The position numbers and the translations under genes are program-made. Shown in pieces: positions 3,789-21,755 of a stretch of DNA of 24,852 nt. The notes under the pieces are model-generated. The model saw only the letters and a list, made by a program, of their open reading frames with translations, made no database searches and was not told the origin of the DNA. Source of the DNA: a virus; IMG/VR virus record IMGVR_UViG_3300021962_000608, positions 1-24,852 of that record; one strand, given 5' to 3'. The number at the start of each line of letters is the position of its first letter. The stretch's first letter is position 1.

Positions 3789-3790
3789 CA

Positions 3791-4135: not shown

Positions 4136-4308
4136 TGCCAGGTAAGAAGATGCCAGCGTTCCTTATGGATGCATACGCTAAGAAGGGCGCAAAAGGAAAA
4201 GTTAAGACTAAGGCCAAGCCAGCAAAGGGAAAGAAGCTTCCTAAGGGCGGAAAGACTCTCGTTGGTACCAACAAGGCCGGCCAGCGCACGGTAGCCCAGC
4301 GTGGCTAA
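4135..4308 (+). CDS. 57-residue Lys-rich small protein
   Basis: This short frame starts at the ATG overlapping the preceding stop (TAATG at 4133-4137) and ends with TAA at 4306-4308, giving 57 residues. It starts MPGKKMPAFLMDAYAKKG and continues as a chain of Lys/Gly/Ala pairs to the end (KPAKGKKLPKGGK), with about one third Lys+Arg. It has the same composition as its two neighbours, is in the coding direction, fills the gap between them without spare bases and overlaps the next gene by 8 bases, which supports it as real. The ribosome binding site is weak, suggesting translation coupled to the upstream gene. Function unknown. Confidence 0.65.
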   Translation: MPGKKMPAFLMDAYAKKGAKGKVKTKAKPAKGKKLPKGGKTLVGTNKAGQRTVAQRG

Positions 4309-4606
4309 GACCCCAGCCTGGACCCGCAAGGAGGGGAAGAACCCCAAGGGTGGGCTCAATGCCAAGGGGCGTGCTTCCTACAAGGGTGGCACGCTCAAGG
4401 CGCCAGTTAAGTCTGGCGACAATCCGCGTCGTGCGTCGTTCCTGGCCCGCATGGGTAACATGCCGGGACCGGAGCGAGACTCGAAGGGGCGACCGACGCG
4501 TCTCCTGCTCTCTCTTCAAGCGTGGGGAGCTAGCAGCAAGTCAGATGCCAAGGCTAAGGCCAAGGCAATCAGCGCTAGGAATAAAGGGAAGAAGAAGAAC
4601 GCTTGA
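4301..4606 (+). CDS. Conserved basic phage protein (resembles DUF6321 proteins)
   Basis: A 101-residue basic protein starting with GTG inside the end of the previous gene. The N-terminus KTPAWTRKEGKNPKGGLN, the motif KGRASYKGG (residues 22-30), the centre SFLARMGNMPGP and the segment LLLSLQAWGASSKSDA are, from memory, characteristic of a conserved phage family labelled DUF6321, often found in structural or packaging regions; I could not check this by search. The C-terminus is almost all Lys, Ala and Arg. There is no strong ribosome binding site, so it is probably coupled. Its stop TGA overlaps the TTG start of the large terminase, so it is likely expressed with it. Function unknown. Confidence 0.75.
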   Translation: MAKTPAWTRKEGKNPKGGLNAKGRASYKGGTLKAPVKSGDNPRRASFLARMGNMPGPERDSKGRPTRLLLSLQAWGASSKSDAKAKAKAISARNKGKKKNA

Positions 4607-6105
4607 ACATTAATGCTGAGATTGCCCAAGATTTGTCCAGAGGCAGGACCGACATCGGATTCTTCGCCTCTCGATGGCTAGGTGTCAATCTCAACCCGGG
4701 CCAATTGGCCTGGCTGAACGGTATGGTTGCCCGCGATGAGACGGGGTTCAGGCCTAAATACCTGACCACCGTATGCAGCGCCGGTAACCGGGCTGGTAAG
4801 ACTTTGGGGATGGCGGTCGGGGTCCTGCACTCTGCCACCTACAAGCTGGGGCTTCGCCCCCCAACGCAGGGAAGCGTCGAAGACGCGGAGCGTTGGACTA
4901 CCGAGCCTTATGAATGGTATCACGTAGGCATCCAGCAGGAAACGGCTGAACTGGTGCATAGAGAATTGGCCATGCTTCTTCAAGGTGGCCACCCAGCCCA
5001 AAAGGGCCGTGGATGCCCAATCGTGAAAGAAATCGGACAGGTCTACAACTTCGAGAAGAAGTACCGCGGGGAGTACCTGTGGATCAAGGTGGACCCAATC
5101 TTCGGAGGTGCGAACATCCACTTCCGTACCACACAAGACAAGGCAAAGGCCTTGCTTGGTAAGGACATGAACGGCATCTCGTTCGACGAGGCGGCCTTCG
5201 AGCCGCACCTACTCATGATCTACCAAGAGGTTCTGAACCTACGAAGGTTGTCCACAGGTGGACAGCTACACTTCATCGGCACTCCGACCGAGGGTATCAA
5301 CGACTACGCAGACCTGTGGGAGCTGGGGAACCCAGAGAACCCAAACCGAGATGACCAGTTCATGAGCTTCCGTCTCTCAACCAGGGACAACGTAGGTTAC
5401 GGACTGAAGTCAGAGACGTTCGAATCCATCCTCCGACAGCAGGCAGAGTACCTTGTTCCTCAGAACATCGACGGATACTTCATCGAAGCCCGTGACTCGT
5501 ACTTCTCCTCTGAGATGGTAGACCAGTGCTTTGTCGACTTCGAGGAAGAGCTACCGCCGAGCAAGGGGCGCCGGTACTCGCAGGGCGTAGACCCTGGGAT
5601 TTCTTCAGACGCGACGTGGGCGGTAACTATCGACTACACAGAACGCAACATGATGGTGGGGGTTCGGTGCCGAAGGAAGGTTGGCAAGCAGACAATCCCT
5701 GCGGTGGTCAACATGGTACGCGAAGGACACCTACTATATAACCAAGACGGTGCTGCATGCACAAGCACCATTGACTCAACTGGATTCGGTGGAAAGCTCT
5801 TCCGCCAGGAGTTCAGCATTATCAAGCCACTTAGGGACTACGACTTCGGCGGAACAAAGGCCAAGAAGCTTGAGCTTCTGGCAGACCTAAAGGCGATTAT
5901 CGACCGAGGTCAGATCAAGTTCCCACGTAGAGGACCATGGATGGAACTTCGAAGGCAGTTGCTGGGCTACAAGCTCAACGACAAACACATGGACACTGAC
6001 GCCGTAATGGCGCTGGCCCTGTCAGTTAGACATGCGGTCAGAAATCCATCGAACCCGGTAGAGAAGCCGGTGTTCAGTTATTTTGGGGAGATTGTAAATG
6101 CCTAA
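4603..6105 (+). CDS. terL: Terminase large subunit
   Basis: A 500-residue DNA-packaging motor with ATPase and nuclease halves. Walker A is GNRAGKT (residues 61-67), Walker B is GISFDEA (191-197, D195/E196), and the coupling motif is LHFIGTPTE (222-230). The nuclease domain shows its acidic residues at D330 (GVDPG), D391 (TIDSTG) and D464/D466 (HMDTDAVMA), as in RNase H-like terminase nucleases. It drives DNA into the prohead through the portal and cuts the concatemer. The start is TTG at 4603, overlapping the previous stop. The first in-frame ATG is residue 41 and would remove the NPGQLAWL segment that normally lies before Walker A, so TTG is preferred. It overlaps the portal gene by 8 bases. 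Confidence 0.95.
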   Translation: MNINAEIAQDLSRGRTDIGFFASRWLGVNLNPGQLAWLNGMVARDETGFRPKYLTTVCSAGNRAGKTLGMAVGVLHSATYKLGLRPPTQGSVEDAERWTTEPYEWYHVGIQQETAELVHRELAMLLQGGHPAQKGRGCPIVKEIGQVYNFEKKYRGEYLWIKVDPIFGGANIHFRTTQDKAKALLGKDMNGISFDEAAFEPHLLMIYQEVLNLRRLSTGGQLHFIGTPTEGINDYADLWELGNPENPNRDDQFMSFRLSTRDNVGYGLKSETFESILRQQAEYLVPQNIDGYFIEARDSYFSSEMVDQCFVDFEEELPPSKGRRYSQGVDPGISSDATWAVTIDYTERNMMVGVRCRRKVGKQTIPAVVNMVREGHLLYNQDGAACTSTIDSTGFGGKLFRQEFSIIKPLRDYDFGGTKAKKLELLADLKAIIDRGQIKFPRRGPWMELRRQLLGYKLNDKHMDTDAVMALALSVRHAVRNPSNPVEKPVFSYFGEIVNA

Positions 6106-8374
6106 AGATAAGCTAAAGATTAGCTCTGGGTCGTTTGTGAATGGCAAGGAAGTTCCTTCCATGATCACAACCGATCCTAACGTCGTTACCAAGTCAAACA
6201 TCGAAGGCATTAAGAAGGCCATCGATACGGCCCGCAAGGAGATCCGCGGACAGAAGACTACTGCCGTAGCCGCTCCTGGCACGCCTATCAAGACCGAGGC
6301 CACCCCAGCCGTAACGAAGGGCCGTAAGGCACGCGCACTCCCCAGCGCAATCGCCAACGGCCGGACGAAGAAGGCAGGCGCAGGCCGCACGATTAACGAT
6401 GTCGTCGTATCTGGCGGCAAGGTACGAGCAGCTAAGATCAACCCTAAGTTCGACCGACTCACCGCCCTTACCGATGCCCAGAAGCGCGGCATGTCCCTTG
6501 AGCGCCAGCGACTCAACCAGCTAGGAGAGGTGGCAGAGGAGAACGAGGATTACCTTCTCGTTCTAGAGGCTATGAACAGGAAGCAGCTTGTTGAGCCCGA
6601 GCAGAACCGAATGCGCGCTCTGTATCGACGGTTTGACCACTACTACCACCCGCAGACCTTTACGCTCGGAGGTGCAGACCACTGGGCAGAGGACCCAAGC
6701 GCACGGCTTTCAGGCCGCTCGCACGTGTCTGTCAACATCCACGCCGCCTATGTGAATATCCCTTCCTCCCTTCAGGCTGTGAGCCCAGTAGTGAACTACG
6801 TTCCTACCGGCCCAGACATGCCGGAGCGCGAAGCTGCCAACCGACGAGAGCGACTGCTCTACGCTTGGTGGGACAGCAACGACATGGACCTTCGGCTAGA
6901 GGAAGCGTGCCTTCTCAAGTCACTCTATGGAACAACCGCGGCCAAGGTGTACTGGGACCCAGTAAAGAAGCTACCACGGATTCAGATCGTGGACACGCCG
7001 GAGAACCTGTACCTTGGGTACGGTAGCTCCGACTACACACGCGTCGACTGGGCGCTATACAGCTACGGCCTCTCGCCTCAAGCAGTGCTCGAGGAGTGGG
7101 GCGTAGACGTCATCCCTGTGAACGACGGGAACAAGTGGTTCCCATACACGTCCTCCAGCACGCATGACGACCCTATCGCCAGCATCTACCTAAACAGCTA
7201 TCACCGAGACCCAATCCGCTACCAGACTGCCTATGACCAGATGAAGATTGAGGTCCTGGACTACTGGTACAAGCACCCAACAGAGCCCGGCAAGCCGCCT
7301 CTTGTTTGCAACGTAATCATTGTCGGCAACACTGTCGTCAAGAGGACAGAGCACCCAGAGCTCGAAGGTGCCATCCCGTACATCATCCTTCGAAACAGCA
7401 TTATCCCTGGTAGCCCATACGGCAAGCCAGAGCTGTACGACATTGAGCAGCTCCTACGCGAGAAGGACGAGAAGATCACGGCCCAGGCCCAGATGATCCA
7501 CTCTGTCGTCGGCGGGCAGATGTGGCAGCTCGTTGGCGCTGAGGCACCAGATGAGGTGCCAGCCAACGCAATCCCTAAGCCTAACCAGGTTGCTACTCCT
7601 GGAGCCGGTAACCGGATTGAGTCGATCAACCCATTCATCCCTCAGTTCCAGGTCGAAGACTACAACAAGCGCATCGACCGAGAGCTTGCCGTGGTGTCTG
7701 GCCTAAACGACCTACTCCTTGGCTTGGCCCCATCCAGCGTCCTTGGCTCCAGCCGGGCTATCGCCCAGCTTATGGCCAACTACGAAGCCCGCATCTCCCC
7801 GAAGCGCAAGCTTCTCTACAGCTGGATTAACCAGGTTTGGGAGACATGCGCACGAATGTGGGAGATCAAGGACAAGGCAGTTGCGAACATTGTTGACGGC
7901 GAGTACCAGCTGGCCATTACGCCACCTGAGCTTACGCCACGAGACACAATCGAACTTGCCCAGACTGCAATCAACATGGTCCAGAACCGACTCTGGTCTG
8001 CCGAGCGTGCGATGGATCGCATGGGCGTCAACGACCCAGAGGGCGAGAAGGACCTCATCCGAGACGAGCAGACGGATGCGACACTCAACCCTGCAGCAGT
8101 GCAGACGATGGGTGCCCTCATTCAGATGTTCAACCAGATGCAGCAGCAGCCACCAGCCGCAGCTCAGGCCCAGGCTCAGGCCGGCCAGAACAGCGCCATG
8201 GAGGCTATGGCAAGTATGAACCCTCCCGCCGGTGGTATGGAGATGCTGAACTCGCCAAGCGAGCAGGCCCTCCCTCCGCAGGAGTCCCTACCGCAGAACG
8301 CGCAGGGTGGTGGAGCTGACCTAATGGCAATGTTGCAGGCCGCACAGGGCGGCGTGCCACAGCAAGGAGAATAA
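6098..8374 (+). CDS. Portal protein
   Basis: A 758-residue protein directly after the large terminase. From about residue 150 the pattern fits tailed-phage portals: a stretch with SHVSVNIHAAYVNIPSSL and PVVNYVP, then a helix-strand region ending DTPENLYLGY, the segment VKRTEHPELEGAIPYIILRN, and a long C-terminal helical region rich in Gln, Met and Pro. Portals form the dodecameric DNA channel at one head vertex and bind terminase. The first roughly 130 residues are an unusual basic, Ala/Thr/Pro-rich extension with no clear internal ribosome binding site, so the long start is retained. ATG is preceded by GGGGAG. Three cysteines are present. The call comes from position, length and pattern. Confidence 0.85.
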   Translation: MPKDKLKISSGSFVNGKEVPSMITTDPNVVTKSNIEGIKKAIDTARKEIRGQKTTAVAAPGTPIKTEATPAVTKGRKARALPSAIANGRTKKAGAGRTINDVVVSGGKVRAAKINPKFDRLTALTDAQKRGMSLERQRLNQLGEVAEENEDYLLVLEAMNRKQLVEPEQNRMRALYRRFDHYYHPQTFTLGGADHWAEDPSARLSGRSHVSVNIHAAYVNIPSSLQAVSPVVNYVPTGPDMPEREAANRRERLLYAWWDSNDMDLRLEEACLLKSLYGTTAAKVYWDPVKKLPRIQIVDTPENLYLGYGSSDYTRVDWALYSYGLSPQAVLEEWGVDVIPVNDGNKWFPYTSSSTHDDPIASIYLNSYHRDPIRYQTAYDQMKIEVLDYWYKHPTEPGKPPLVCNVIIVGNTVVKRTEHPELEGAIPYIILRNSIIPGSPYGKPELYDIEQLLREKDEKITAQAQMIHSVVGGQMWQLVGAEAPDEVPANAIPKPNQVATPGAGNRIESINPFIPQFQVEDYNKRIDRELAVVSGLNDLLLGLAPSSVLGSSRAIAQLMANYEARISPKRKLLYSWINQVWETCARMWEIKDKAVANIVDGEYQLAITPPELTPRDTIELAQTAINMVQNRLWSAERAMDRMGVNDPEGEKDLIRDEQTDATLNPAAVQTMGALIQMFNQMQQQPPAAAQAQAQAGQNSAMEAMASMNPPAGGMEMLNSPSEQALPPQESLPQNAQGGGADLMAMLQAAQGGVPQQGE

Positions 8375-8377
8375 GAA

Positions 8378-11200
8378 ATGGCACGACGAGGTAAGTTCGG
8401 TCGGGCAGGTGCAGGCACAACCCAGAACCTGTCCGTCGTTATCTATAATCTGTTGAAGCAGCAGATGAGCGACGAGATGACGTCGATCCTAACTGCATAC
8501 AACACAAACATGAAGGACGGTCGGTACAGCTCCCAGTTCAATGGGCAGAACGTGGACGGCGAGTTCGTCCTCCAGTACTACCGCAACATGCTTGCCGGGT
8601 TCCCGCCCGGGTCAACTGAGTATGAGACGCTCAACTCTCAGATGGCATCCTTCGAGAGCCGATACCGTACTGACGTGCAGAACCTTATTATCGGCGCAAT
8701 GGAAGATGGCACGCAGATTGACTTCGGCTTGCTTGGCGCTGATTTCGCCAACCGTGGAATCTCAGAGGTAAGGCTGACAGACATTGAGTCGTGGGCCGCC
8801 CAGGAGATTGCAGACCTTGAAGTCAATGGCGATACCGTACAGGCTGATAAGCTTAGGGGAGTGGTGTTCACGGCTAAGTTCGACGTACTAAACGATGGGA
8901 AGGTTGCCGGAGTCAACAGCGGAAGCATTAGTCGCGGAGCCTACAACAGCTGGCTGAAGGGCCAGCTCCAGGCAGCAATCGACGCTGGCTTCACCAAAGA
9001 CAGCAAGGAGTACCGCACTATTCTAGGGCTTCAGGCCCAGGCTGCCTCCGAGGCTAAGACCCAGGGGGCCGTCGACGCTCGTGACAAGTACGCCAATGAC
9101 ATGCGCGACATTCAGCGCAGCATGAACGCTGCAGCTGAGAAGCTTATCCAATCGTACGCTGACAGTGGTAACCCAGCCATGCTTGACGTAATCAACGAAG
9201 CTCTTCAATCGACCCAGACAAGCTATCCGTTTATTGAGCTCCTTCAGACTCTGGCAGCTGCCGGAACTGAGGATTCTGGATATACTGGCGTATATGCAGA
9301 CATCGTGCAGTACGCTGACGCCGGTGTACTTGCGGAATTCAACGCCGCAACTCTTGCCGGGCAGCAAGATCTTTCCACCCTTGCGGCTGGAGGGTTTGCG
9401 GACGCCGGAGACTACGCCGATGGAATCGCAGCCGATTACGCAAGGCTTAAGTCGTCAACAGGTACGTTCGTAAAGAACTCCGGAATGGAGTTCGGTATCG
9501 CCTATGGCGGGAACGCGATGGACGATTTGCGAACTAACCTAGCCGCAGCCGGTGTCATGTTCACTGGCGAAGGTACCACACTAAACGCTACCGGCGGTCA
9601 CCCAGAGGCTGTTCTTAGCGTGCTTAAGCTGTTCGGCAAGTCTATCGAGGAGCAGGACCTAACTAACTTTAACTGGATCAAAGACCTTGCAGAAGGTGAA
9701 ATCCCTGCCTCACTTGTAGCCGGAACGAACATTGACGACATTGACAAGAGCGGTACGATCAGCCAGGACGAGCTTGTTACTGCAATCGAAAATGGCAAGA
9801 TCTCGTTCGATGACTACACAAATATCCAGATGAAGGCAGCAGCAATCGCAGACAAGACGCTAGATGTTCCAACACTTGGCGGCTCAGCTGTGATCACGGC
9901 AAAGTCCATCATCAACACAATGTTTAATACTGCCTGGAGCAAGAATGTGCTCAACAATGGTGGGCAGGTCTTGATCAAGGGAACAGGCGAGGTAGTCGCA
10001 TACGAGGGCGCAGCCCCGGCTGGCGGCGTACCTACCATGGTCAGCGTCGGAGGCAAGACCTACGGCGGTATCTCCATGCCTATTACAATCAACGCTAAGG
10101 GCACAGAGCAGAACCCACAGGACTGGTCTAGCGCCACCGGAATGACGGTTCAGGTGTTCCGAACCGGAGGCAACACCTCCAGCGGCTACGTAGGAGCCAA
10201 GGACACAATGTTTGTCCGGATTGTTGGTAACCTAGCTGGCCCTAATGGGGCCTCCGCGAACGGTGTCCTTGTACCGTACAAAGATTGGAAGCGGTGGATG
10301 TCTACCGTCGTTGGTATCGACATCGATGACTCTGCTGTCATTAACTCCGGCAGCGGTAAGGTGCCAAACATCTTTATCGACAGCACGGCCGCATACGATG
10401 CTAAGGGCAAGGACGTTAGCGAGTATTACAAAAACATCTTTAACCCAGCAGACCCAGCGTTCATCGGCAAGTCTACCAGCGGCGTTGGCTCTGGCATTAT
10501 GAACATCAGCGAAAATGATGTAGCTACATTCCAGTACGCTGGGTTTATCGCAGACCCACGTACCACAAAGGATGCAATCGACGCTTCATTCGCAAGAGGA
10601 AAAGAAAAAATCCTTGCTGAGGCCGGGCTGTATGCAGCCCAGGCCGGTAGGGATAAGCCAATCATGAGCGACGTCCTTAAGGCAATTTACAAGGGTATCC
10701 CTGGGGTGCCGTCAACGTACGACATCGATACTTCAGTGACCAAGTTCGGGCAATACGGGGATGTCACAGCAAGGGTTAGCGCGATGTTTGGGAACACCAT
10801 CCCGACTACTCCGGCTCCAGCTATGGACCTTGGTCAAATTCCTGGAGTGCTATGGGACACTATCGTTGGTCCAGGGTACAAGAAGCCAGAGGGCGCTAAG
10901 TCTCCTGTTGACTTCACTGGAGTTGAGCAGGGGCTTGGCTCGTTTGCCCCGCCAGACCTCAGCGGTATTGGCGACTTTATCGGCGGAGCATTCCGGAACC
11001 TTGGTGACTTCTTTAACCCGGCCAAACCAGAGACACCAAAGCCAGCAGCTCCAACACCGTCTCCGGCAATCCCAACGCCGTCGACTCCGAAGCCAACAAC
11101 TCCAAGCCCAGCAACACCAGCCCCAGCCACGCCTAGACCTGGTGGGTTCAGCCCTTCCACTCCAAAGCCGTTTAGCGCATCTGAGAGAAGGGTCTTTTAA
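8378..11200 (+). CDS. Large structural-region protein with an EF-hand loop and Pro/Thr tail
   Basis: A 940-residue protein of no family I recognise, starting four bases after the portal with a strong AAGGAG site. The first half is helical and Ala-rich. Residues 454-465 read DIDKSGTISQDE, a textbook 12-position EF-hand calcium loop (Asp 1 and 3, Ser 5, Gly 6, Ile 8, Glu 12), followed by a looser ENGKISFDDY. Residues about 490-680 look beta-rich (many Gly, Val, Thr). The last 60 residues are a Pro/Thr/Ser/Lys tail (repeats like TPKP, TPSP), probably disordered. It contains no cysteine. Its place between portal and scaffold suggests a virion protein, perhaps an internal or ejected one; this is inference. 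Confidence 0.85.
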   Translation: MARRGKFGRAGAGTTQNLSVVIYNLLKQQMSDEMTSILTAYNTNMKDGRYSSQFNGQNVDGEFVLQYYRNMLAGFPPGSTEYETLNSQMASFESRYRTDVQNLIIGAMEDGTQIDFGLLGADFANRGISEVRLTDIESWAAQEIADLEVNGDTVQADKLRGVVFTAKFDVLNDGKVAGVNSGSISRGAYNSWLKGQLQAAIDAGFTKDSKEYRTILGLQAQAASEAKTQGAVDARDKYANDMRDIQRSMNAAAEKLIQSYADSGNPAMLDVINEALQSTQTSYPFIELLQTLAAAGTEDSGYTGVYADIVQYADAGVLAEFNAATLAGQQDLSTLAAGGFADAGDYADGIAADYARLKSSTGTFVKNSGMEFGIAYGGNAMDDLRTNLAAAGVMFTGEGTTLNATGGHPEAVLSVLKLFGKSIEEQDLTNFNWIKDLAEGEIPASLVAGTNIDDIDKSGTISQDELVTAIENGKISFDDYTNIQMKAAAIADKTLDVPTLGGSAVITAKSIINTMFNTAWSKNVLNNGGQVLIKGTGEVVAYEGAAPAGGVPTMVSVGGKTYGGISMPITINAKGTEQNPQDWSSATGMTVQVFRTGGNTSSGYVGAKDTMFVRIVGNLAGPNGASANGVLVPYKDWKRWMSTVVGIDIDDSAVINSGSGKVPNIFIDSTAAYDAKGKDVSEYYKNIFNPADPAFIGKSTSGVGSGIMNISENDVATFQYAGFIADPRTTKDAIDASFARGKEKILAEAGLYAAQAGRDKPIMSDVLKAIYKGIPGVPSTYDIDTSVTKFGQYGDVTARVSAMFGNTIPTTPAPAMDLGQIPGVLWDTIVGPGYKKPEGAKSPVDFTGVEQGLGSFAPPDLSGIGDFIGGAFRNLGDFFNPAKPETPKPAAPTPSPAIPTPSTPKPTTPSPATPAPATPRPGGFSPSTPKPFSASERRVF

Positions 11201-14200
11201 TGCCACTAGTAGGCTACTCTAACGACCAGACCAGACCGCCTAGCACTGATATCTCCGGCCGCGACCTAGCATTTAAGCTAGACATTGGCGGGGAAGATAA
11301 GCTAGATGGTCTGCGCCCTGATGAGAAGCTTGCTGCGCAGATGGGTGCAGGGATTAAGGATGTAGTAAAGACCGGCTTTGATATCGGAAGCAAGATTCCA
11401 TTCCTTGGAGAGGCGGCTGACTTCGTCAGCAAGACTCCAGTAGGTGCAGGCATTGGCGCTGCCCTGCAGCTTGCGTCTGTTCCTAGCGAGGTGCTGGCAA
11501 ATCTTGTTGCAAATGTTCGACTTAAGGTTACAGACAGGTCTAGTCTCCCAACAGACATCCAGAACATGCTCAACTCTGGAATGGATACCGGTAAGGTCGT
11601 TGACTACATGATCAAGTCTCAGCGCGCTTGGTCGGACAGCGAAGACGCGAACCTTCTGTTCACGATGCTTACAGACCCACTTAACTTCACGCCAGCAGTC
11701 TTCGCTAAGGCCGGGGCCCTAAAGCCACTGGCCGCCGTGGGCGGGGCAACCACCGGTGCGCTTGCCCTAGGAGCGGCGACTGGCGGCGCTGGCTTCCTGC
11801 CTGGACTTATCGCTGGTGGTATCACTGGATATAAAAAGGCCGGCAAGTTTGCTTCCGCAGCAGAGGCACAGGCGGCACGCCTAGAAAATATCAAGTCTCT
11901 GCTTGGGGCCGGAAAGACCGTTGTAGAAGAAGTACCTGAGCTTTCCTCGGCACAAAAGGCAGCTATGATCCTCAACAAGCCACGCGGTCTGAACCTTAGC
12001 GAGAAGCTTGCCATTGGCCGAGATGCGCGTATCACAATCGAGCAGGCACGTAAGGAGCTCGAGGCCTCACGGAAGGCTGGCAACGCAGAGGGTATTGCCC
12101 TAGCAGAAGAGAAGATCTCCCGCGCAAACAACGCCATGAAGGCAGCAAGCGCTATCGACGAGGGAGTACTTGCTGGAATGTACGACGTGTACAAGGCTGC
12201 GACTGACGGACTTGGCGAGGGGTTCAAGCGCGTAGGAGCCGGTCTGTTCGGGGCAAACTGGCACGCGCTATACAAGGAGCTTGACGGCGCCCTGCTAAAC
12301 GAGGACGTAGCTGGACTATCCGGTATGTTTGAGCACCTTGGCAAAGTGGACGACGTAAAGAATACCATCGGCCGAGGCCTTGCCAACTTCGGCATTATCG
12401 GCACAGAGCATCTTATGAATGGCAGCAATAAGTTCCGCGCCATGAACGCAGCTGACCAGATTGGCAAACTTTACTACGACGCTATCGACCGACTCATGCT
12501 GCAGAGGGGCAGGGGCGCAGCCGTTAAGTTTACAACAGAAGAAGTCGTCGACGAGATGAAGCAGGTAGCTAACAGCGCAGAGCTTAAGGACACCGGCGTA
12601 GTCAAGCTGTTTGATACCGGTAGCGTATCGGAGCTCCGAAGCCGCGTTGAGTTCCTTCGCAACGTTGACCCAATTGTAGCTGCCACCCAAGAGGGCCGAA
12701 AGGCACTTCCTCAAATCAAGCAGCTTGCCAACTTCATTGAAAGCCAGATGAATGCAAGCGAGCTAGGAGCTATGCGAGCATCCGGAGTTAGCTACGAGAA
12801 CAAGCTGGTTGGCCGTATCAAAGAGGGCGGGCTCTCGGAGTACGTACGCGCATCCGTAGACGAGATCCAGGGAACAAAGATTCGGATTGTCTCCAAGCTG
12901 GGATCTTTGGCAGAAGCCAGGACACTTGCTCGGCAGCACATCACTAGCATTGCATCATCACTTGGGCACAGCTTCGACGAGGTCGCTCCGCAGTTCGACA
13001 GCTGGTTCGATAATAACTTCTCTAAGTTCTACACTCCTGACGGATTCCTAAAGGACGCCGACTCGGCAAGCCTTGCCGCAGCACGTATGCTTGCTGTTGA
13101 GTCTACCGGGTATGCGACATCCGCCAAGACCGCAGCTATGTACAATACCTTTGTAGAAGATATCCTAACTGGGAACACAACCGCCCTTACCCAGCGATAT
13201 GGCAAGGAAGTTGTCGATAACCTACGGGCGATCTTCGAGGCTACCGGGAAGATCCACATTGTATCAAGCGGACACATCTTCCGTGATAAGTCTCTCGCGT
13301 TTGTCGACGCATACAGCCAGCTCGCTAAGATTACAAAGAGCCTTGAGCTGGCCAAGCAGAAGGAGCTTAAGGCCGCCACATCCGCTGACACAATTGCCCA
13401 AGACGGGCGTGTCGTACGGGCATTCGACAGGGCTGGTGGCCAGAAGCAAGTCGATCGATTTATTAAGCGCCTAGAGACAATGCGTGCCAGCCATAACGAG
13501 GGGGCTGAGTACGACAAGATTCTTAAGGATCTAATCTCTGATGCTCGCAAGGCCAAGAACCTTGAGGACATCCGCGTGTCGTGGGCCAATCGAGCAACAG
13601 AACAGTTTGACGATATCCGAGTTGTTCATGGAGACCTCAAGAACGCAGACGCTATCAATAAGTACCTACGAGAGGCCATTGATACCGGGCTTGCAGTCAA
13701 CCGCTTCCCTGAGCGGAACCTTACCGCAATCGAACAGGCGCTCAGGCTGCTAGGCAAAGACCCGAACATTGTCCGAACGTTTAACGGCGGGGCATACCGG
13801 CTAGTTCGCGCACCAGAGAACAACATGATCTACAAGCCAGCTCTCCTGGAGATGCCTGGCGCAACCCCTGGACAGCGGCAGCTGTGGGGCAGCAAGGTAA
13901 TGCCGTTTGTGGATATGTCTAACAAGGGACTACAGAAGGTAGCCAATCGCTACGGCAAGCAGATCCTTGACTACAAGCCTACTGCGCTTCAGAACTTCAT
14001 GGGCAACATGTTCTCGCCAATCCCACAGAAGTACGTCACTGCTTCCATCCGACGCAGGCTTGCCGGATACCTGGTACGCGGAGGCCTGACCCAGGAGCAC
14101 GTTGACGCCATCCTAGATGAGCTGGTAGCTCGTGGCGTGCAAGAGGGCGTGTCTGCGCGAGGTCTGTCCCCTAAGGTAATCAACGATGCATTTAAGCAGG

Positions 14201-16218
14201 CAGTTGATACAGTTGGAGGACCTGGAACCTACAAGCAGTTCCTGCAGAACTTCTCCGGCAATGCTTTCGGAGCACAGTTCAACCCAGTTAACGCTACCAT
14301 GTTTGCCTTCCGCGGAGACAAGAACGTAGTCGGACTTACCCAGTACTTCACTGGCGGGCTTAAGGAAGGCAAGTTCGGGACTCAGATTGCTACCTGGACT
14401 GACAGGTGGTACCCAACAATGAAGTTCAAGCTCAACCCTATCTACTGGTTGCAAGAGTACACTGAAAGCCCGATCCTAAACTCTGCACGCGGGGTAGACC
14501 GAGATACCGTATTCTCCATGATGGCTGACGGAAAGAACGCACAGATGGTATCTGCAAGCCAGCTTCGTGACCTGACCAAGGTTGGGCCAGAGACTCAGTC
14601 GTTCGTTGATAATGCAAACTTCATGGCGGTATTCCGTCAGGACGCTGTGGCCCAGGCGATGACTGGCCGGTATGACGATGTCGTAATGCACGCTGGGTTC
14701 TGGGAGAACCTCAAGAATGGCAGGCACCTGGACGACCTGGCTAACAAGAAGATGGCCGCTCGAGATGCCCTTGCCCTTGACATCACGGCCAAGACATTCT
14801 CAGAGACACTTCGAGAGAAGGACTTCAACCTGTGGTCAGCACTGGTAGAGCAGTACGGAACTTCAGACTCTCGTGCCCTGTTCACTAACTACGTGAACTA
14901 CCGTCTCCGACTAAGTGACCCTACTCGCGTATGGAACGACATCGAAGTGTCACGACCTGCCGGCGTGGGCTTCGGTAGAATCCCAGACCCTAACCGCCAG
15001 GCATGGGCCGATGCGCAGCGAGAGCTGGTTACCGGCGGGCGCTTCGCCCCAGAGGCGGATGTGATTGGCTCAAACGTAGGCATTCTTACCCAAGAGCAGT
15101 TGCAAGCCCAGCTTATTGCCAACCCGGCGCTGCACATGGCCACACTAGAGAAGCATGTGTCTAGCCTCAGCGACGCCGGTTACGATGTATCTCGGTTCGC
15201 TGACTCCGCCAACAACCTGCGCAACGCACTCCGCCGTGCGGAGGGTGAAGTAAGGTCTACTGGTGACATGACTGAAGAGACCATCGCTATTGTTAAGACT
15301 GCACAGAAGAACCTACACACCGACCTCCAGAAGCTTGGCCGTGACTGGGTACTGCTGCAGCACAAGCGCAGTGCACTCGAGGCCCTTGCAACCCAGCTGC
15401 ACTTTGCCGATCCAATGGGCGTTGACCCACACACAGGCAAGATTCTAGAGGCGATGCTCGTTGGCCAGGGGTTCAGCAAGGATATTCAATACATCGTCGA
15501 CGAGGTAAACGACGTAGTAAACTCAGTAGTCCGAGGCGGCACAGACCCAATCGTTGACGGACGTGCCTTCCGGGATTCCGTACAGGCAGAGATGGTTCGT
15601 CGAGTGGCAGCCAAGCCAGACCTTGCTGGCAACTTTGGCAATGGCATGACTAGCGTTGTATCCAACCACGGGGCAGAAGAGACTGTGTATAACGCATTCC
15701 AGTACGCCTACACCAGGGCCCTTGACCAGGCCAACACTACAACCTACTTCCCGTCTGACCGTTCGTTCTTCGAGAGGACTATCAACCACCCAGGTCTGGC
15801 CATGTACCCATACAGCTACATGTTCAAGAAGATCCTGCCTGAGCTGATTGAGTTCCTGTTCAAGCGACCGTTCGGCGCCAAGGCTCCGATGGCTGGGTAC
15901 TCTGCCTACATGCACGTGCGTGACTACTTCGAGTACGAGCTCGAGACAAACCCAGGGCTAAAGACCTGGCTAGACGAGCACCCAAACTCTGTATACATGA
16001 TGACAATGATGTTCCCAGGCGTGCCATGGGATGTTGCGGCAGTGCCGCCACAATGGGCACGCAATCTCTACAAGCGGGCGGCGAACGGAACTGAGTGGAG
16101 CCCAGGCGGGTCTGTCTTCCAAGACATTCTCAAGCCTGCCATGTCAGTCGGTCCGCTAACCGCTGCGGAAACAATCACGTCCACTGTGGACGAGTTGTTT
16201 AAACCAAAGACCCCATAA
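11200..16218 (+). CDS. Giant 1672-residue protein of unknown family, likely virion or ejected protein
   Basis: The largest gene in the window, coupled to the previous one by TAATG. Residues about 175-217 are a Gly/Ala-rich hydrophobic segment (AAVGGATTGALALG then GLIAGGITG) that could enter a membrane. Long charged helical stretches follow (about 225-310 and 700-850). The C-terminal 180 residues are aromatic and Pro-rich, with NHPGLAMYPYSYM, LPELIEFLFKRPFG and MMFPGVPWDVAAVPPQWARN. No cysteine occurs in 1672 residues. I found no lysozyme, protease, ADP-ribosyltransferase or T7/N4-type RNA polymerase motifs. Position between portal and scaffold, size and composition suggest an internal virion protein ejected with DNA, or a displaced tape-measure-like protein. 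No family is recognised. Confidence 0.9.
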   Translation: MPLVGYSNDQTRPPSTDISGRDLAFKLDIGGEDKLDGLRPDEKLAAQMGAGIKDVVKTGFDIGSKIPFLGEAADFVSKTPVGAGIGAALQLASVPSEVLANLVANVRLKVTDRSSLPTDIQNMLNSGMDTGKVVDYMIKSQRAWSDSEDANLLFTMLTDPLNFTPAVFAKAGALKPLAAVGGATTGALALGAATGGAGFLPGLIAGGITGYKKAGKFASAAEAQAARLENIKSLLGAGKTVVEEVPELSSAQKAAMILNKPRGLNLSEKLAIGRDARITIEQARKELEASRKAGNAEGIALAEEKISRANNAMKAASAIDEGVLAGMYDVYKAATDGLGEGFKRVGAGLFGANWHALYKELDGALLNEDVAGLSGMFEHLGKVDDVKNTIGRGLANFGIIGTEHLMNGSNKFRAMNAADQIGKLYYDAIDRLMLQRGRGAAVKFTTEEVVDEMKQVANSAELKDTGVVKLFDTGSVSELRSRVEFLRNVDPIVAATQEGRKALPQIKQLANFIESQMNASELGAMRASGVSYENKLVGRIKEGGLSEYVRASVDEIQGTKIRIVSKLGSLAEARTLARQHITSIASSLGHSFDEVAPQFDSWFDNNFSKFYTPDGFLKDADSASLAAARMLAVESTGYATSAKTAAMYNTFVEDILTGNTTALTQRYGKEVVDNLRAIFEATGKIHIVSSGHIFRDKSLAFVDAYSQLAKITKSLELAKQKELKAATSADTIAQDGRVVRAFDRAGGQKQVDRFIKRLETMRASHNEGAEYDKILKDLISDARKAKNLEDIRVSWANRATEQFDDIRVVHGDLKNADAINKYLREAIDTGLAVNRFPERNLTAIEQALRLLGKDPNIVRTFNGGAYRLVRAPENNMIYKPALLEMPGATPGQRQLWGSKVMPFVDMSNKGLQKVANRYGKQILDYKPTALQNFMGNMFSPIPQKYVTASIRRRLAGYLVRGGLTQEHVDAILDELVARGVQEGVSARGLSPKVINDAFKQAVDTVGGPGTYKQFLQNFSGNAFGAQFNPVNATMFAFRGDKNVVGLTQYFTGGLKEGKFGTQIATWTDRWYPTMKFKLNPIYWLQEYTESPILNSARGVDRDTVFSMMADGKNAQMVSASQLRDLTKVGPETQSFVDNANFMAVFRQDAVAQAMTGRYDDVVMHAGFWENLKNGRHLDDLANKKMAARDALALDITAKTFSETLREKDFNLWSALVEQYGTSDSRALFTNYVNYRLRLSDPTRVWNDIEVSRPAGVGFGRIPDPNRQAWADAQRELVTGGRFAPEADVIGSNVGILTQEQLQAQLIANPALHMATLEKHVSSLSDAGYDVSRFADSANNLRNALRRAEGEVRSTGDMTEETIAIVKTAQKNLHTDLQKLGRDWVLLQHKRSALEALATQLHFADPMGVDPHTGKILEAMLVGQGFSKDIQYIVDEVNDVVNSVVRGGTDPIVDGRAFRDSVQAEMVRRVAAKPDLAGNFGNGMTSVVSNHGAEETVYNAFQYAYTRALDQANTTTYFPSDRSFFERTINHPGLAMYPYSYMFKKILPELIEFLFKRPFGAKAPMAGYSAYMHVRDYFEYELETNPGLKTWLDEHPNSVYMMTMMFPGVPWDVAAVPPQWARNLYKRAANGTEWSPGGSVFQDILKPAMSVGPLTAAETITSTVDELFKPKTP

Positions 16219-16243
16219 GGGTCGCAAGCAAATGGAGGTTAAA

Positions 16244-16762
16244 GTGACGGACGAAGTCGTGTTGAACGACCAGGCACAGTCGCAGGTAGATCCTGCCACT
16301 GACCAGGACAACGACATCACCACTTGGAAGAAGCGTTTGGCTGGCAAGGACCAGGCTCTCACGGCTACCAAGAAGCAGCTGGATGAAGTCAAGGCTGAGT
16401 ACGACAAGGTACAGGCCTGGAAGCTCCAGATGGAGGAGGCAAGCCTCACAGAGTTTGAGCGTGCGCAGCGACGCATCGCCACTTTGGAACAGGAACTTAA
16501 GGCTACTCGGGAAGCCGAGCAGCGCGAGCGCCTGTCCAAGGAGTTCCCTTCCTACGTTCAGTGGGTTGAGAAGTCGAAGGGTCTGACCGATGAGGATCGG
16601 GCCCGAGAGTTCGAGACTCTTATGAAAACTGGTGGGGCTCCCAAGCAGGAGTTCGTTGATCCGAACAAGCCGGCGAAGGAAGTTCCTTCGACCGGAAAGA
16701 AGCGCTCCTCTGAGGACATTGTTAAGGACATCGCTGCCCTTGGCAATCCTTGGGGCGAGTAA
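16244..16762 (+). CDS. Capsid scaffolding protein
   Basis: A 172-residue acidic, helical protein directly before the major capsid gene, the usual place for scaffolds. A heptad-rich coiled coil spans roughly residues 25-100 (WKKRLAGKDQALTATKKQL, then IATLEQELKATREAEQ). The C-terminus is short and mixed-charge (KKRSSEDIVKDIAALGNPWGE), as in scaffolds whose tail binds the capsid protein. I chose GTG at 16244 because GGAGGT at 16234-16239 lies at ideal spacing before it. The ATG at 16232 would put that site inside the gene and has only a distant AAGGG. It would direct coat assembly and then leave the head. Like the capsid gene it has no CTA, AGA or AGG codons. Confidence 0.85.
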   Translation: MTDEVVLNDQAQSQVDPATDQDNDITTWKKRLAGKDQALTATKKQLDEVKAEYDKVQAWKLQMEEASLTEFERAQRRIATLEQELKATREAEQRERLSKEFPSYVQWVEKSKGLTDEDRAREFETLMKTGGAPKQEFVDPNKPAKEVPSTGKKRSSEDIVKDIAALGNPWGE

Positions 16763-16776
16763 TAAAGGAGTAAATA

Positions 16777-17781
16777 ATGGCCACGAATACGCGAGCCACG
16801 ATTGACGCTGGCTCATCGAATGCCTATTCTGCGCTCATTACTGAGCTCGTTTCGCAGCAGGCGCAGGAAAACCTGCGCAACCGACTGGTGCACGCAATGC
16901 CGGGTAACTACACGGCAGGTCGTTTCCAGAAGGGCAGCAACGAGATCCGTTATGCGCGTTACCCAGACCTCACGCCGCTTGGCGTGGCGGACACCCTTAC
17001 CGAGGCAGGCGCCCCTGCTGAGTACGACCTCACGGTTACGACCGAGTCGTTCGTTCCTAAGCAGTACGGTAAGGTCCTCAAGATTTCAGACCTTGCGCAG
17101 CTCGACAGCCCGCACGACCTGATTTCAATCGCATCTGAGCGCCTCGCTCGTGCCGCCACGGAGTCGATGGACAACATCATCCGTGACGTTCTCAAGCAGG
17201 GCACCAACGTCCGATACGCTGCGGGCCGCGCTTCACGCGCACTCGTTCAGTCGGGCGACAAGCTCACCGGCTTGGAGATCAAGCAGACCGTAGCCAAGAT
17301 GAAGGCCGCTAACATCCCAACCTTCGCGGATGGGTTCTATCGCGCAATCATCCACCCTTCGGTTGAGTTCGACCTCTTGACCGACACAAGCACGAACGGC
17401 TTCCTCGAGGCCACGAAGTACACCAAGTCGCTCGACCTCCTCAACGGAGAAATCGGCGCGTACGCTGGTGTCCGCTTCATGGTTTCGCCGTCAGCCGCAA
17501 CGTTCACGGGCGGCGTTGGTGGTGCACTCACCATCCACTCGACGTTCGTGTTCGGACCTGACGCCTACATCGTGGGCGACAGCCAGACGCTCCAGAGCTA
17601 CTTCGTGGCTCCGGGCGGCGACCATGCCGATCCAATCGCGCAGGTTGCAACGCTTGGCTTCAAGATGCGCTTCGGCGCAATCCTCCGTGGCGAGGGTGCG
17701 ACCGGCGAGTTCGATGGTAGCGATACCTCGACTGGCCAGCCGCGATACCTCCGCGTGGAGTCGGTTGCTTCGACGCTCTAA
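16777..17781 (+). CDS. Major capsid protein, N4-gp56 family
   Basis: A 334-residue protein matching the N4-gp56 family of HK97-fold capsid proteins in length and pattern: an N-terminal segment NAYSALITELVSQQA, a region LTEAGAPAEYDLTVTTESFVPKQYGK, the helical spine ERLARAATESMDNI, the motif AIIHPSVEFDLL, then LNGEIGAYAGVRFMVSP and a C-terminal GFKMRFGA strand. It builds the icosahedral shell. The start has a strong AAAGGAG site. Codon choice differs from its neighbours: I found no CTA or TTA (Leu) and no AGA or AGG (Arg) codons, as expected for the most highly expressed gene. A strong hairpin follows the stop. Confidence 0.93.
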   Translation: MATNTRATIDAGSSNAYSALITELVSQQAQENLRNRLVHAMPGNYTAGRFQKGSNEIRYARYPDLTPLGVADTLTEAGAPAEYDLTVTTESFVPKQYGKVLKISDLAQLDSPHDLISIASERLARAATESMDNIIRDVLKQGTNVRYAAGRASRALVQSGDKLTGLEIKQTVAKMKAANIPTFADGFYRAIIHPSVEFDLLTDTSTNGFLEATKYTKSLDLLNGEIGAYAGVRFMVSPSAATFTGGVGGALTIHSTFVFGPDAYIVGDSQTLQSYFVAPGGDHADPIAQVATLGFKMRFGAILRGEGATGEFDGSDTSTGQPRYLRVESVASTL

Positions 17782-17841: not shown

Positions 17842-18477
17842 ATGGCTATTACTCTACTAGCACTCAGGACCATCGTCCGGCGGGACCTGCGTGACTCCGG
17901 GGCCACTAATACATGGAGCAATGATGAGCTCAACGACATGATTAAGTGGGGTACTCAGGAGGTCTCGCGTATCCGCCCACAGGAGACATATGAAGAAATT
18001 GCATACACTGCTCCTGCTGTTGGAGCATTCTTTACTATCAACACGCTCACGCTGGACACTGTTTACCGTGTTGACGTATACAAAGACAGCAAGCTTGTCG
18101 CTTCTATCCCGTTTGCCCAGGATGCCCAGGCTACTGGTGGATGGGACTTTATTAATGGAAAGCTGCACATGCCACCCTATTACGTCATGCCTAACGGATC
18201 TACGCTGCGGGTGTTTGGATACAAGCACTACACACAGCCCACGATTGACACGTCCTCTATCGAGCTCGACGACGATGGTGTTAACGCCGTGCGTGCCTGG
18301 GTCCAGAAGGAAGCGATGTTCATGCTGATCGCTGACCGAGTCAAGTTCCAGCAGTGGCAGGTTGCATCAGGTGCGTCAGACACCAATAGCATCCAGCTAG
18401 CCCAGCTATACAGTGCGGCAGAGCGCCGCTGGGATAGCGTATCCAAAGCAGTTCGCCGCGTTAGGAAGAACCCCTAA
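17842..18477 (+). CDS. Head-tail connector / adaptor protein
   Basis: A 211-residue protein starting after AAGGAG and directly following the capsid gene. It begins with a helical segment, LRTIVRRDLRDSGATNTWSNDELNDMIKWG, the pattern of head-tail adaptor proteins (helical bundle with a start like lambdoid gp6/T7 gp11-type adaptors). A central beta-rich part (FTINTLTLDTVYRVDVY) and a C-terminal helix rich in Arg follow. Such proteins sit under the portal and join head to tail. The gene's stop overlaps the next start (TAATG). The family call rests on position, length and the first 40 residues. Confidence 0.65.
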   Translation: MAITLLALRTIVRRDLRDSGATNTWSNDELNDMIKWGTQEVSRIRPQETYEEIAYTAPAVGAFFTINTLTLDTVYRVDVYKDSKLVASIPFAQDAQATGGWDFINGKLHMPPYYVMPNGSTLRVFGYKHYTQPTIDTSSIELDDDGVNAVRAWVQKEAMFMLIADRVKFQQWQVASGASDTNSIQLAQLYSAAERRWDSVSKAVRRVRKNP

Positions 18478-19328
18478 TGGACCTCAGCGCAGCAGTAACT
18501 ATCCAGCGTCCTGGGGCAGCGCCTCTGGACATCAATAGCATCCGCGACCCCAACGCCGTTGGGTCTGCGCCTATCTCTGGGTACATGATTGAGCAGGTTG
18601 ACTTCTCAGTTGTAAGCGTGACTGCATTCGTTGAGGACACGCCACTGGTCGACGGCATCGATAGCTACGACCCATACCTTGGCGGCCGTCAGATTAACAT
18701 CGTGCTGTCCGTTTACGGCAGCACGTATGCTGACTTCTGGGACAAGATGAATGCCCTTAACTTTGCGTTCCAGGCTCAGCCTAGGGCCGCAAACGTTGGC
18801 ACATACCCGGCACTTGAGGCAGACGGCAAGCGCAAGCTATCCTTCTCTCAACCTTCTGCCGCTGGAACCGCCAGCCTATACATGATGGTGCGGCCAATCG
18901 CACTGCCCAGGTTTACAATCGACAGCGCCAGCTCTGCTGGCATTGCCGAGCGTGGGTACTCCCAGCGTGTGCAGCTAAGCCTGCTGGCAGAGGACCCGTA
19001 TAAGTACGCTGCTAACAGTTCTACGTTTAGCCGAACTGGAACTGGGACAATCAGCGTAGTGAATAACGGAAACACAGTAGCATGGCCAACGGTAACTTGG
19101 AACCTAACAGCCGGCACACCTGTGTCGGCCACGCTTGGTAGCGACACAGTCTCGCACTCCGCGTTCGGGTCAACCATCACAGACACGTTCAAGACGGCTT
19201 CTTCTACTAGCAATAGCACGCTCACCGGCTACGAGTTCTTCAGCATCCCACCAGGCACATCTTCTGTGTCTGTCGTTGGTCAGTCAGGGCAGACGGTAAG
19301 CATTACAATCAGAGAGGCCCTATTGTAA
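18477..19328 (+). CDS. Distal tail (Dit)-like protein
   Basis: A 283-residue beta-rich protein. Features of the siphophage Dit group are the central segment ADFWDKMNALNFAF, RVQLSLLAEDPYKYAANS (the usual 'EDPxxY' strand) and VVNNGNTVAWPTVTW (the link to the galectin-like domain, commonly 'NxGNxxxWPxI'). Dit forms the hexameric ring at the tail tip under which the Tal hub sits. The following gene is a Tal-like hub, as expected. Start by TAATG coupling with AGGAAG upstream. No cysteine. Confidence in the family is fair to good. Confidence 0.75.
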   Translation: MDLSAAVTIQRPGAAPLDINSIRDPNAVGSAPISGYMIEQVDFSVVSVTAFVEDTPLVDGIDSYDPYLGGRQINIVLSVYGSTYADFWDKMNALNFAFQAQPRAANVGTYPALEADGKRKLSFSQPSAAGTASLYMMVRPIALPRFTIDSASSAGIAERGYSQRVQLSLLAEDPYKYAANSSTFSRTGTGTISVVNNGNTVAWPTVTWNLTAGTPVSATLGSDTVSHSAFGSTITDTFKTASSTSNSTLTGYEFFSIPPGTSSVSVVGQSGQTVSITIREALL

Positions 19329-21755
19329 ATGGCCCGTAAGAACGTTGTGGTAATCTACGATATGAAGGCGTACAACAACGCTACCCCGTTCGCCAAGAAC
19401 AACGTTGTTGCGGTTATCCCAGATGCCAGGGATGTTGGCGTGCAGCTGTACGCTAATGACTCTGGCTATGCGTACTTCACCCTACCTGTAGACCACCCAG
19501 CGGTATCTCTTATCCAGCCATTGCAGCAGCACTACTCGGTACAGAAGTGGGACGGCTCTGCGTATGTAGACATCCAGTCAGGTATCATCACCGACTACGA
19601 CGCAGGGGTCAACGAGGTTGTGGTTAACGGCGTCGACTACATGACCGCACTAAACAAGTACTACACGCCCATCCATGGTCCCGAGCTTGGAGATAAGGCG
19701 ATCCCAAATAACGATACTACAACTATCGCTAGCACCACGCCAAAAGACATCATCTCTACGGCATCCTCAAGGGACACAGGGAAGAAGAGCGAGGGTTACT
19801 GGGTTCCGGTAGTCGACTCAACATACCCGAACGTGGGTAAGGTTGAGATTTATAGCGGAGCTTCTGACGACGTCAGCCCAGGCACGGCAGGCTCTACTTG
19901 GGGCACTAAGGACAAGCTAACTATCACATACGAGGAAGTGTCCGGAGAAAAGACCGGAGCCGTAATCCTGAGTGGTTGCCAGTACATCTGGCGTGACGCA
20001 TCAACAGCGTACTGGCAGGACGGAGAGACCGGAAAGACTATCGAGGGCAACTTCTCAATCGGCACAAGCTCAACGTCAAAAGGCCGCATCGGGTTCTTGC
20101 TGTACGCAAACCCTGGCGGCCCTCTTCTTTATTTCTATGAGGAGTATTACTACGCAGTTTCCAGCGTCGAGATCGGCGGTCAATACGCAGCGCTTAACGC
20201 ACCGCTGGATTTCAGCATCAAGCTCAGGCCGGTTAGCCACTATGACGCAGCGACTGAGGATCACACTGGCCGCACACGAACTATGTCAATCCTTACTGAG
20301 GGAGTTAGCTACGAGTTCTACGCGATCCCATTCTACTGGGGGAACCTAAGCCCGAAGGACGGATCGACAGACTACAATCAGTACATCTGGGGCAACACCA
20401 CTGGGGATCTAGACAGCTCGTTTACCGCTGGCCTTCAGAGCGATACCCTTGACGGCGCCATCACTTCGGCTATGTCCACAACAACCGATCCCATGTACGT
20501 GCTAGACCGCACTGCTGACTACCCTGACACTGTTCTAAACGTTACGTCCTGCCTGCAGAATAACTACCTGACACAGGTCCCTCCCTCTGGTACTAGTAGC
20601 TATTGGCGTGTATTTAGTATGGCCGGTGCCGTACCGCTAAACGTAGTACCAGGAGACACAGTGGCTATCGCCGGAGTCAGCGAAGCTCACTTTAATGGAG
20701 CTGCATCTATTACGGAAATCTCAACAGATAGGTATACAATCTACATCTCTGACTCAGCACAACCAACAACAAGCAGAACAGGTACAGGCGGGACTATTAC
20801 TAAGGACAATCCAGTACTAGTGCCAATTGTAAAGTTTGCAGGTCTAAACCAAGTAAACGCAGCATCTAGTACAACAAAGCACCCATTTACAACAGCAGGT
20901 CAAGGACCAGTAGACTTTATCCGAGAGCTAGCGGACAATGAGATGGGTACCAGGATCAACGGGTCTAAGGTTGTTTTCAATTACTACGGAGTACCGGGAG
21001 CAACAGCAGACGGTACTAGCCTGATTGTAAACCACTCTGTCTCGTCATCCGCACAGGCCACGCTAATCTACCCAGGCCAGATTAAAGAGTTCAACGTGGT
21101 GAGCAAGCTTAGCATGAAGACCAACTCTGTCCGGGTTATCCCAACTACTGACTTCCTTATCGGCTCTAGTACGGAAGGAGCAAGCGGGGTAAAGAGTAAA
21201 GGTATTGTTAAGGTTTCTCAATACTCAGCATCAGAGCCGGCTCTGCCTACCGTCCAGACCCAGGCTGGATTCCTATCCGCCCAGTCTGCTGGTAACTTTG
21301 CCCAAGGATACATTAACAACTTCGGCTCTGACGCAGACGTGCAGGCAATTAGCGTGGCGCTTAGGACTGAAGAGTACGGGCCTATCGGCATGCCAGGAAC
21401 CCCTAAACTTGGCGAGACAGTACGTGTCGTCGTACGTAGGAAGGCCGCTGGCGTGGGCGCTGACGAGGTGTCCGGCCTGTATAACGTTGGCGGTATGCAG
21501 TGGCACATAAGGACTGACGGGCACGAAGAGCTGATGCTAGACCTGGTAAAGCCAGACAGGTTCAAGGGGCCTGGCGTTACGTGGGAGAGCAAGGTAACCC
21601 CATCCCCGACGCCTACCGAGCCGCCTACGCCAAGCCGTGCCCCTGCCCCTGCCCCTGCTCCTAAGCCAAAGACTGTGCCTGTGTATCAACGCTCTGGTGT
21701 GGCCGCTCCAGGCACCCCAAGAATTGCTGGCCGGCCTGAGAGGTTCCAGCTGTGA
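19329..21755 (+). CDS. Tail hub / tail-associated (Tal)-like protein with inserted domains
   Basis: An 808-residue protein placed right after the Dit-like gene (TAA directly followed by ATG). The first 115 residues fit hub proteins: beta-strands with PLQQHYSVQKWDGSAYVDIQ, GIITDYDAGVNEVVVNGVDY and a helix MTALNK. About residues 150-350 are an extra beta-rich region. Around 417-500 a further small beta domain (PGDTVAIAGVSEAHFNG, then RYTIYIS) appears inserted in unusually AT-rich DNA. The hub fold seems to resume near residue 510 (PVDFIRELADNEMG) and ends around 770 (LMLDLVKPDRF). The tail end is Pro/Ala-rich low complexity, residues about 755-808. It should cap the tail tube and contact the fibre or cell surface. 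No peptidase motif was seen. Confidence 0.75.
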   Translation: MARKNVVVIYDMKAYNNATPFAKNNVVAVIPDARDVGVQLYANDSGYAYFTLPVDHPAVSLIQPLQQHYSVQKWDGSAYVDIQSGIITDYDAGVNEVVVNGVDYMTALNKYYTPIHGPELGDKAIPNNDTTTIASTTPKDIISTASSRDTGKKSEGYWVPVVDSTYPNVGKVEIYSGASDDVSPGTAGSTWGTKDKLTITYEEVSGEKTGAVILSGCQYIWRDASTAYWQDGETGKTIEGNFSIGTSSTSKGRIGFLLYANPGGPLLYFYEEYYYAVSSVEIGGQYAALNAPLDFSIKLRPVSHYDAATEDHTGRTRTMSILTEGVSYEFYAIPFYWGNLSPKDGSTDYNQYIWGNTTGDLDSSFTAGLQSDTLDGAITSAMSTTTDPMYVLDRTADYPDTVLNVTSCLQNNYLTQVPPSGTSSYWRVFSMAGAVPLNVVPGDTVAIAGVSEAHFNGAASITEISTDRYTIYISDSAQPTTSRTGTGGTITKDNPVLVPIVKFAGLNQVNAASSTTKHPFTTAGQGPVDFIRELADNEMGTRINGSKVVFNYYGVPGATADGTSLIVNHSVSSSAQATLIYPGQIKEFNVVSKLSMKTNSVRVIPTTDFLIGSSTEGASGVKSKGIVKVSQYSASEPALPTVQTQAGFLSAQSAGNFAQGYINNFGSDADVQAISVALRTEEYGPIGMPGTPKLGETVRVVVRRKAAGVGADEVSGLYNVGGMQWHIRTDGHEELMLDLVKPDRFKGPGVTWESKVTPSPTPTEPPTPSRAPAPAPAPKPKTVPVYQRSGVAAPGTPRIAGRPERFQL
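21639..21662 (+). repeat. Hexamer tandem repeat (GCCCCT) in the Tal gene
   Basis: Three exact copies of GCCCCT at 21639-21656 and a fourth imperfect copy (GCTCCT) at 21657-21662, encoding an Ala-Pro repeat in the linker near the C-terminus of the hub protein. Such repeats change length by slippage in steps of two residues without a frameshift. Confidence 0.8.

Follow-up and report, generated by a model that had tools for sequence, protein, structure and literature searches.

Gene organization of the locus

The window is a 24.9-kb virus record from an uncultured phage with a genome of roughly 42 kb, and it carries the features located below on its plus strand. It begins with the C-terminal 215 residues of a late protein (2–649), which comparison with complete relatives shows to be 2388–2585 residues long, followed by a 128-residue putative zincin metallopeptidase (649–1035) and a tail fibre with a Collar domain, assigned by domain match (1074–3140). 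Database matches identify the terminase large subunit (4603–6105) and the portal protein (6098–8374). A 150-residue helix-turn-helix-like protein, possibly the small terminase subunit, is encoded before the terminase (3140–3592). Downstream of the portal gene lie the genes for a 940-residue protein (8378–11200), the 1672-residue protein that is the subject of this study (11200–16218), a scaffold-like protein, so designated from its position and composition (16232–16762), and the major capsid protein (MCP; 16777–17781). The latter was assigned by database match and has cultured-phage relatives at <60% identity among Bacillus Pagevirus, Paenibacillus, Streptomyces and gut phages.

Using the capsid protein and terminase as queries, we found 131 related loci; the C-terminal half of the 1672-residue protein, used as a profile, picked up 176 encoding stretches. 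Three relatives have 123-base end repeats, as in circular assemblies, and measure 41.0–43.0 kb. The gene order is constant: the protein of about 2400–2585 residues, the 128-residue zincin, fibre, terminase, portal, the protein of about 940 residues, the protein of about 1672 residues, scaffold, capsid, adaptor, Dit and Gp37-like tip. An ORF of 874–1011 residues stands directly upstream of the 1425–2282-residue homologue in 48 of the 48 relatives with a complete upstream gene; the portal gene precedes this ORF in 47 relatives, and scaffold lies downstream of the homologue in 52/53. When viral contigs were scanned with the 1672-residue protein alone no match was obtained, because its sequence patterns are too variable, and its relatives were reached via the MCP and terminase scans. 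Tblastn searches with the 1672-residue protein, its C-terminal block, the portal, the terminase large subunit and a divergent member gave no cultured-phage match. Two scans of genome contigs for a host found nothing.

A conserved 1672-residue protein between portal and scaffold

The frame at 11200–16218 is open from ATG to stop over 1672 codons, takes up 20.2% of the window and overlaps the stop of the 940-residue ORF with its start by one base (TAATG). Comparison with an 81%-identical homologue gave a dN of 0.135 and a dS of 1.59 (dN/dS about 0.09), and the neighbouring virion genes show a similar pattern of dN and dS. The gene is under purifying selection. The ORF is intact in more than 50 relatives, and 56 distinct near-full-length homologues occupy the same gene position. 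The dN/dS ratio and these homologues indicate that the ORF is not a chance one, and the initial annotation, which had described a 1672-residue protein filling 20% of the window, was correct on this point.

Several features of the protein were resolved by alignment. Residues 165–215 (11692–11844) form a Gly/Ala-rich hydrophobic segment, also evident from hydropathy, that could insert into a membrane. The richest 40-residue G+A window starts at residue 168 (57.5% G+A) and hydropathy peaks at 1.53 in residues 187–205, in agreement with the segment that had been placed near residue 190; a conserved motif around N151-P165 precedes it. The segment is the protein's single membrane-like element, is modest and lies nearer the N-terminus than the C-terminus. 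A comparable peak, Gly-rich and hydrophobic, occurs at this place in most relatives, with several falling under the threshold used. One subgroup (L013, L024, L065 and L093), with proteins of about 1867 residues, carries an insertion of 153–154 residues right after the hydrophobic segment (past query residue 247).

Residues 1037–1111 (14308–14532) form a conserved motif block (G..TQ..TG..K...YP..KFK.NP.....E..ES). The aromatic C-terminal block, residues 1493–1633 (15676–16098; RSFFERTINHP...YPYSYMFKKILPE...PFG..AP), stands out in both alignment and composition: F, W and Y make up 19% of its residues, the maximum for the protein, compared to 7% of residues 1–1499, and no other part of the family is as well conserved. 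It is thus as distinctive as the initial annotation had described, and could be the end that binds the portal or a partner. Two AlphaFold2 half-models, of low confidence (mean pLDDT 63), are almost wholly helical, consistent with the long charged helices proposed previously.

One relative, L216, encodes a 2282-residue version (3764–10606 of its record) with about 1000 extra residues, which include a possible acetyltransferase-like stretch. A HETFH zincin motif lies just ahead of its conserved C-terminal block.

Homology and structure searches

The protein had been reported to match no family, and searches of Pfam, PHROGs, NCBIfam and the PDB bear this out. Individual members gave weak matches (best E about 4e-5) that did not recur consistently across the family. 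The best PDB profile matches, to designed helical repeats (E 6e-5), were discarded as compositional, and VIA-align matches to talin, vinculin and related bundles (best Z 9.5, over about 100 residues), as well as to designed helices, are no better than helical bundles would be expected to give and were set aside. Searches with hmmsearch --max and hhalign revealed nothing significant between the family and the ejection proteins of T7, P22, Sf6, phiKMV and N4, and there was no profile similarity to the lambda H or P318 tape measures. No enzyme domain was found in the window's protein or most relatives, and no cell-wall hydrolase or transglycosylase domain was detected.

The sole significant structural match, obtained with Foldseek in BFVD, is to A0A6J5RYQ7 of an uncultured Caudovirales phage (residues 760–1672, E 4.5e-11, 18% identity), which supports kinship and, with its low TM-scores, assigns no fold. 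The name of this match and the Bacillus phage Pascal protein gp19 led us to pursue LPD38 (PF18857). This domain was detected in 0 of 26 family members and 0 of 45 records at E<=10, and HMM-HMM comparison gave no match, while the positive control, Pascal, was detected; LPD38 membership was therefore rejected. The 98% hhalign matches to LPD38 were artefacts, in which the same charged template tail was paired with several unrelated query places, and they were gone once restricted blocks were used. As the homology tests against the T7, P22, Sf6, phiKMV and N4 proteins and LPD38 all failed, the protein is filed under none of them. By these sequence comparisons, it represents a family without a described member.

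The proposed large partner proteins and the putative zincin

The 940-residue protein contains no cysteine and may have a gp15-like role. The giant protein of 2388–2585 residues, encoded in complete form by, for example, G001 (L133; 1105–8862, minus strand), is near cysteine-free and has a Gly-zipper hydrophobic C-terminus as its sole well-conserved part. It has no PDB, Pfam or useful PHROGs match; by eye, residues of about 345–430 of the G001 protein resemble a SLOG-type nucleotide-binding domain. No small gp14-like membrane partner was seen among the late genes, and the Gly-zipper C-terminus of the 2585-residue protein could serve as the gp14-like element.

The stand-alone zincin, encoded right after the giant-protein gene, contains a HELLH motif and invariant E107 and E109, and its HExxH is present in 31 of 31 distinct relatives. 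It is a candidate processing protease. In L216, where the zincin motif is fused into the 1672-residue homologue, no stand-alone zincin was seen in the 34-kb record, which may be incomplete; this arrangement hints that the zincin and the 1672-residue protein may work together.

Tail genes

The MCP gene is followed directly by genes for an SU10-type head-tail adaptor (17842–18477; match below the Pfam cutoff), a Dit-like distal tail protein of the SPP1 gp19.1 type (18477–19328; E 1.4e-5) and a Gp37-like tail tip protein (19329–21755; weak match), with Dit adjoining the adaptor. The region 17842–21755 combines tail parts of podovirus and siphovirus type in an unusual way, with no tube or tape measure between adaptor and Dit/tip. 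No tail tube, chaperone or tape measure is recognisable among the late ORFs of near-complete or complete relatives. With the adaptor, Dit and tip present, this gene content suggests that the tail is likely short, with a siphophage-type tip.

Cysteine content

The 1672-residue protein contains no cysteine in its 1672 residues. Per 1000 residues, the family averages 0.22 cysteines (58 members), the 940-residue family 0.02 and the giant 0.11, compared to 3.27 for portal, 10.4 for the terminase large subunit, 4.7 for Dit and 4.0 for the Gp37-like protein of the relatives. Known or annotated ejected proteins of T7, P22, Sf6, phiKMV and N4 together have 2 cysteines over 10,320 residues, as against 104 in 15,075 for the remaining virion proteins compared; the set was hand-picked and includes related phages, so its statistical significance is overstated. 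The podovirus proteins Burro gp27 (4491 residues) and Akoni gp31 (4487 residues), encoded beside the portal, contain none, nor does N4 gp50, an injected enzyme, over the 3008 residues read. Tape measures are nearly cysteine-free too (lambda H, 0/853; P318, 1/1899), and scaffold proteins are also cysteine-poor; the signature therefore denotes an ejected, tape measure or assembly protein and nothing finer. It is an empirical signature measured here and not an accepted criterion for ejection proteins, and a partial literature search found no earlier statement of it.

The protein as a candidate ejected internal virion protein

In T7 and P22, the ejection proteins leave the particle before the DNA does and reassemble into a passage through the envelope (PMC8954989). 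Ejection genes are described in a gp15-then-gp16 order, and size and synteny identify them better than sequence does (PMC8954989). The order of the 940- and 1672-residue genes resembles this order: a larger ORF follows the gp15-like gene, as in the definition given there, in all 48 loci, and the larger protein is predicted to be largely α-helical. We infer, with a probability of about 0.7, that the 1672-residue protein functions as an ejected internal virion protein of a probably short-tailed phage. The best reading is that it is the gp16-like member of an ejected set of 940-, 1672- and 2585-residue proteins. One candidate of the initial annotation had been an ejected protein that forms a channel across the cell wall. 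Its ejection is supported by the position in the head module, the pairing with the 940-residue protein, the helical character, the membrane-like segment and the scarcity of cysteine; perhaps the protein itself also lines the DNA conduit, a step to which we give slightly less than even odds. Ejection genes are usually located after the tail genes and not between portal and scaffold. This atypical gene place counts against ejection, as do the absence of homology to proven ejection proteins, of a gp14-like partner and of a cell-wall hydrolase domain, the modest hydrophobic segment and the non-specific nature of cysteine scarcity.

The protein could instead be ejected as cargo: once injected, the domains of such a polyvalent-type protein would act on the host, with the other two large proteins providing the conduit. 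The extra domains of the L216 version, with their HETFH zincin, would fit such a role, as would the best BFVD match, which is named for a large polyvalent protein domain, and the cysteine-free injected enzyme N4 gp50. However, LPD38 is undetected by profile and profile-profile search, length insertions are rare, the fused zincin motif occurs in L216 only, and rather than several enzymatic domains the window's protein and most relatives have none, leaving this alternative doubtful. We regard as improbable that the protein is an inner-core or assembly protein that shapes the portal vertex or organises DNA in the head and stays unejected: the placement of its gene in the head module, after portal and before scaffold, and the cysteine poverty of scaffold proteins would suit this function, but a scaffold gene is already present, and ejection is favoured by the size, by the Gly/Ala segment and by what generally becomes of core proteins in short-tailed phages.

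The least probable reading, which we consider very unlikely, is the displaced tape-measure protein of a long-tailed phage that the initial annotation had also suggested. A large helical protein with a hydrophobic segment, the presence of Dit and a Gp37-like tip, and weak matches of a few family members to phrog_167 all accord with it, and it survives the cysteine scarcity because tape measures share this property. It is weakened by the lack of recognisable tube, tail-chaperone or tape-measure genes in near-complete and complete relatives, where Dit directly follows the adaptor, by the absence of profile similarity to lambda H or P318, and by the gene itself, which precedes scaffold and MCP and does not lie between tail chaperones and Dit.

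For the ejected internal protein, the following sequence of events may be envisaged. The 1672-residue protein would be made together with the portal and the 940-residue protein; its synthesis with the portal, before scaffold, would favour its entry into the procapsid at the portal vertex, into which it would be built before packaging. At infection, it would thread in an unfolded state through the portal, the adaptor and the tail tip, reach the host ahead of the DNA and refold in the envelope; there, the Gly/Ala segment may enter the membrane and the helical body may contribute to the DNA conduit. The 940- and 2585-residue proteins would act as its partners, and the zincin might process one of them.

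A bolder and, in our view, unlikely proposal is a new injection machine, in which three cysteine-free giants (940, 1672 and about 2585 residues; more than one third of the genome) are ejected via a mini-tail that pairs a podovirus adaptor with a Dit and tip of siphophage type, one of the three giants being trimmed by a dedicated zincin. If so, the lack of cysteine would generally mark, irrespective of sequence, those phage proteins that traverse the portal unfolded, and the mini-tail would connect the tail tips of siphophages to DNA delivery by short-tailed phages. The ejection proteins of most uncultured short-tailed phages are unannotated because they diverge too fast for sequence recognition; the cysteine measure offers a simple way to look for them in other genomes, and a whole undescribed family gains a testable role.

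Comparison with known systems

As in T7, where gp15 and gp16 are both cysteine-free, the gene for a smaller helical protein precedes that for a larger one in what appears to be a short-tailed phage. In contrast to T7, the genes here are located between those for portal and scaffold, the partner is far larger (2585 residues), and no transglycosylase domain, gp14-like protein or similarity in sequence or profile was found. LPD38 proteins of podoviruses, such as Bacillus phage Pascal gp19 and pelagiphage HTVC034P gp44, are similar in size (1229–1672 residues) and contain no cysteine. Their genes lie towards the end of the virion operon, which in pelagiphages is the position of T7 gp16, and the Pascal capsid protein is a relative of the one here (about 30% identity); LPD38 itself, however, is undetected in the 1672-residue family by HMM or HMM-HMM comparison. 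A0A6J5RYQ7, named 'Large polyvalent protein associated domain-containing protein', has 1449 residues, a length similar to that of the family's short members, but is a predicted model only, with a low overall TM-score (0.21/0.16).

Other podoviruses also encode a large cysteine-free protein near the portal. Streptomyces podovirus FlowerPower gp9 (Beephvirinae), with 1635 residues and no cysteine, has its gene between that for the portal and the one ahead of the MCP gene, and the FlowerPower capsid protein is related to that here; by contrast, its profile match spans 50 columns and is non-significant (E 0.047), and other genes intervene before the MCP. The giant cysteine-free proteins Burro gp27 and Akoni gp31 of Microbacterium podoviruses differ in being about 4490 residues in one piece and have no profile match to the families here. 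Burro virions contain a protein of ~250 kDa that was assigned to gp27 (PMC7302621). The initial annotation's view that large proteins at this place are unusual holds only in part: they are the rule in this phage group, and FlowerPower, with 1635 residues, and Burro and Akoni, with about 4490 residues directly beside the portal, have them likewise.
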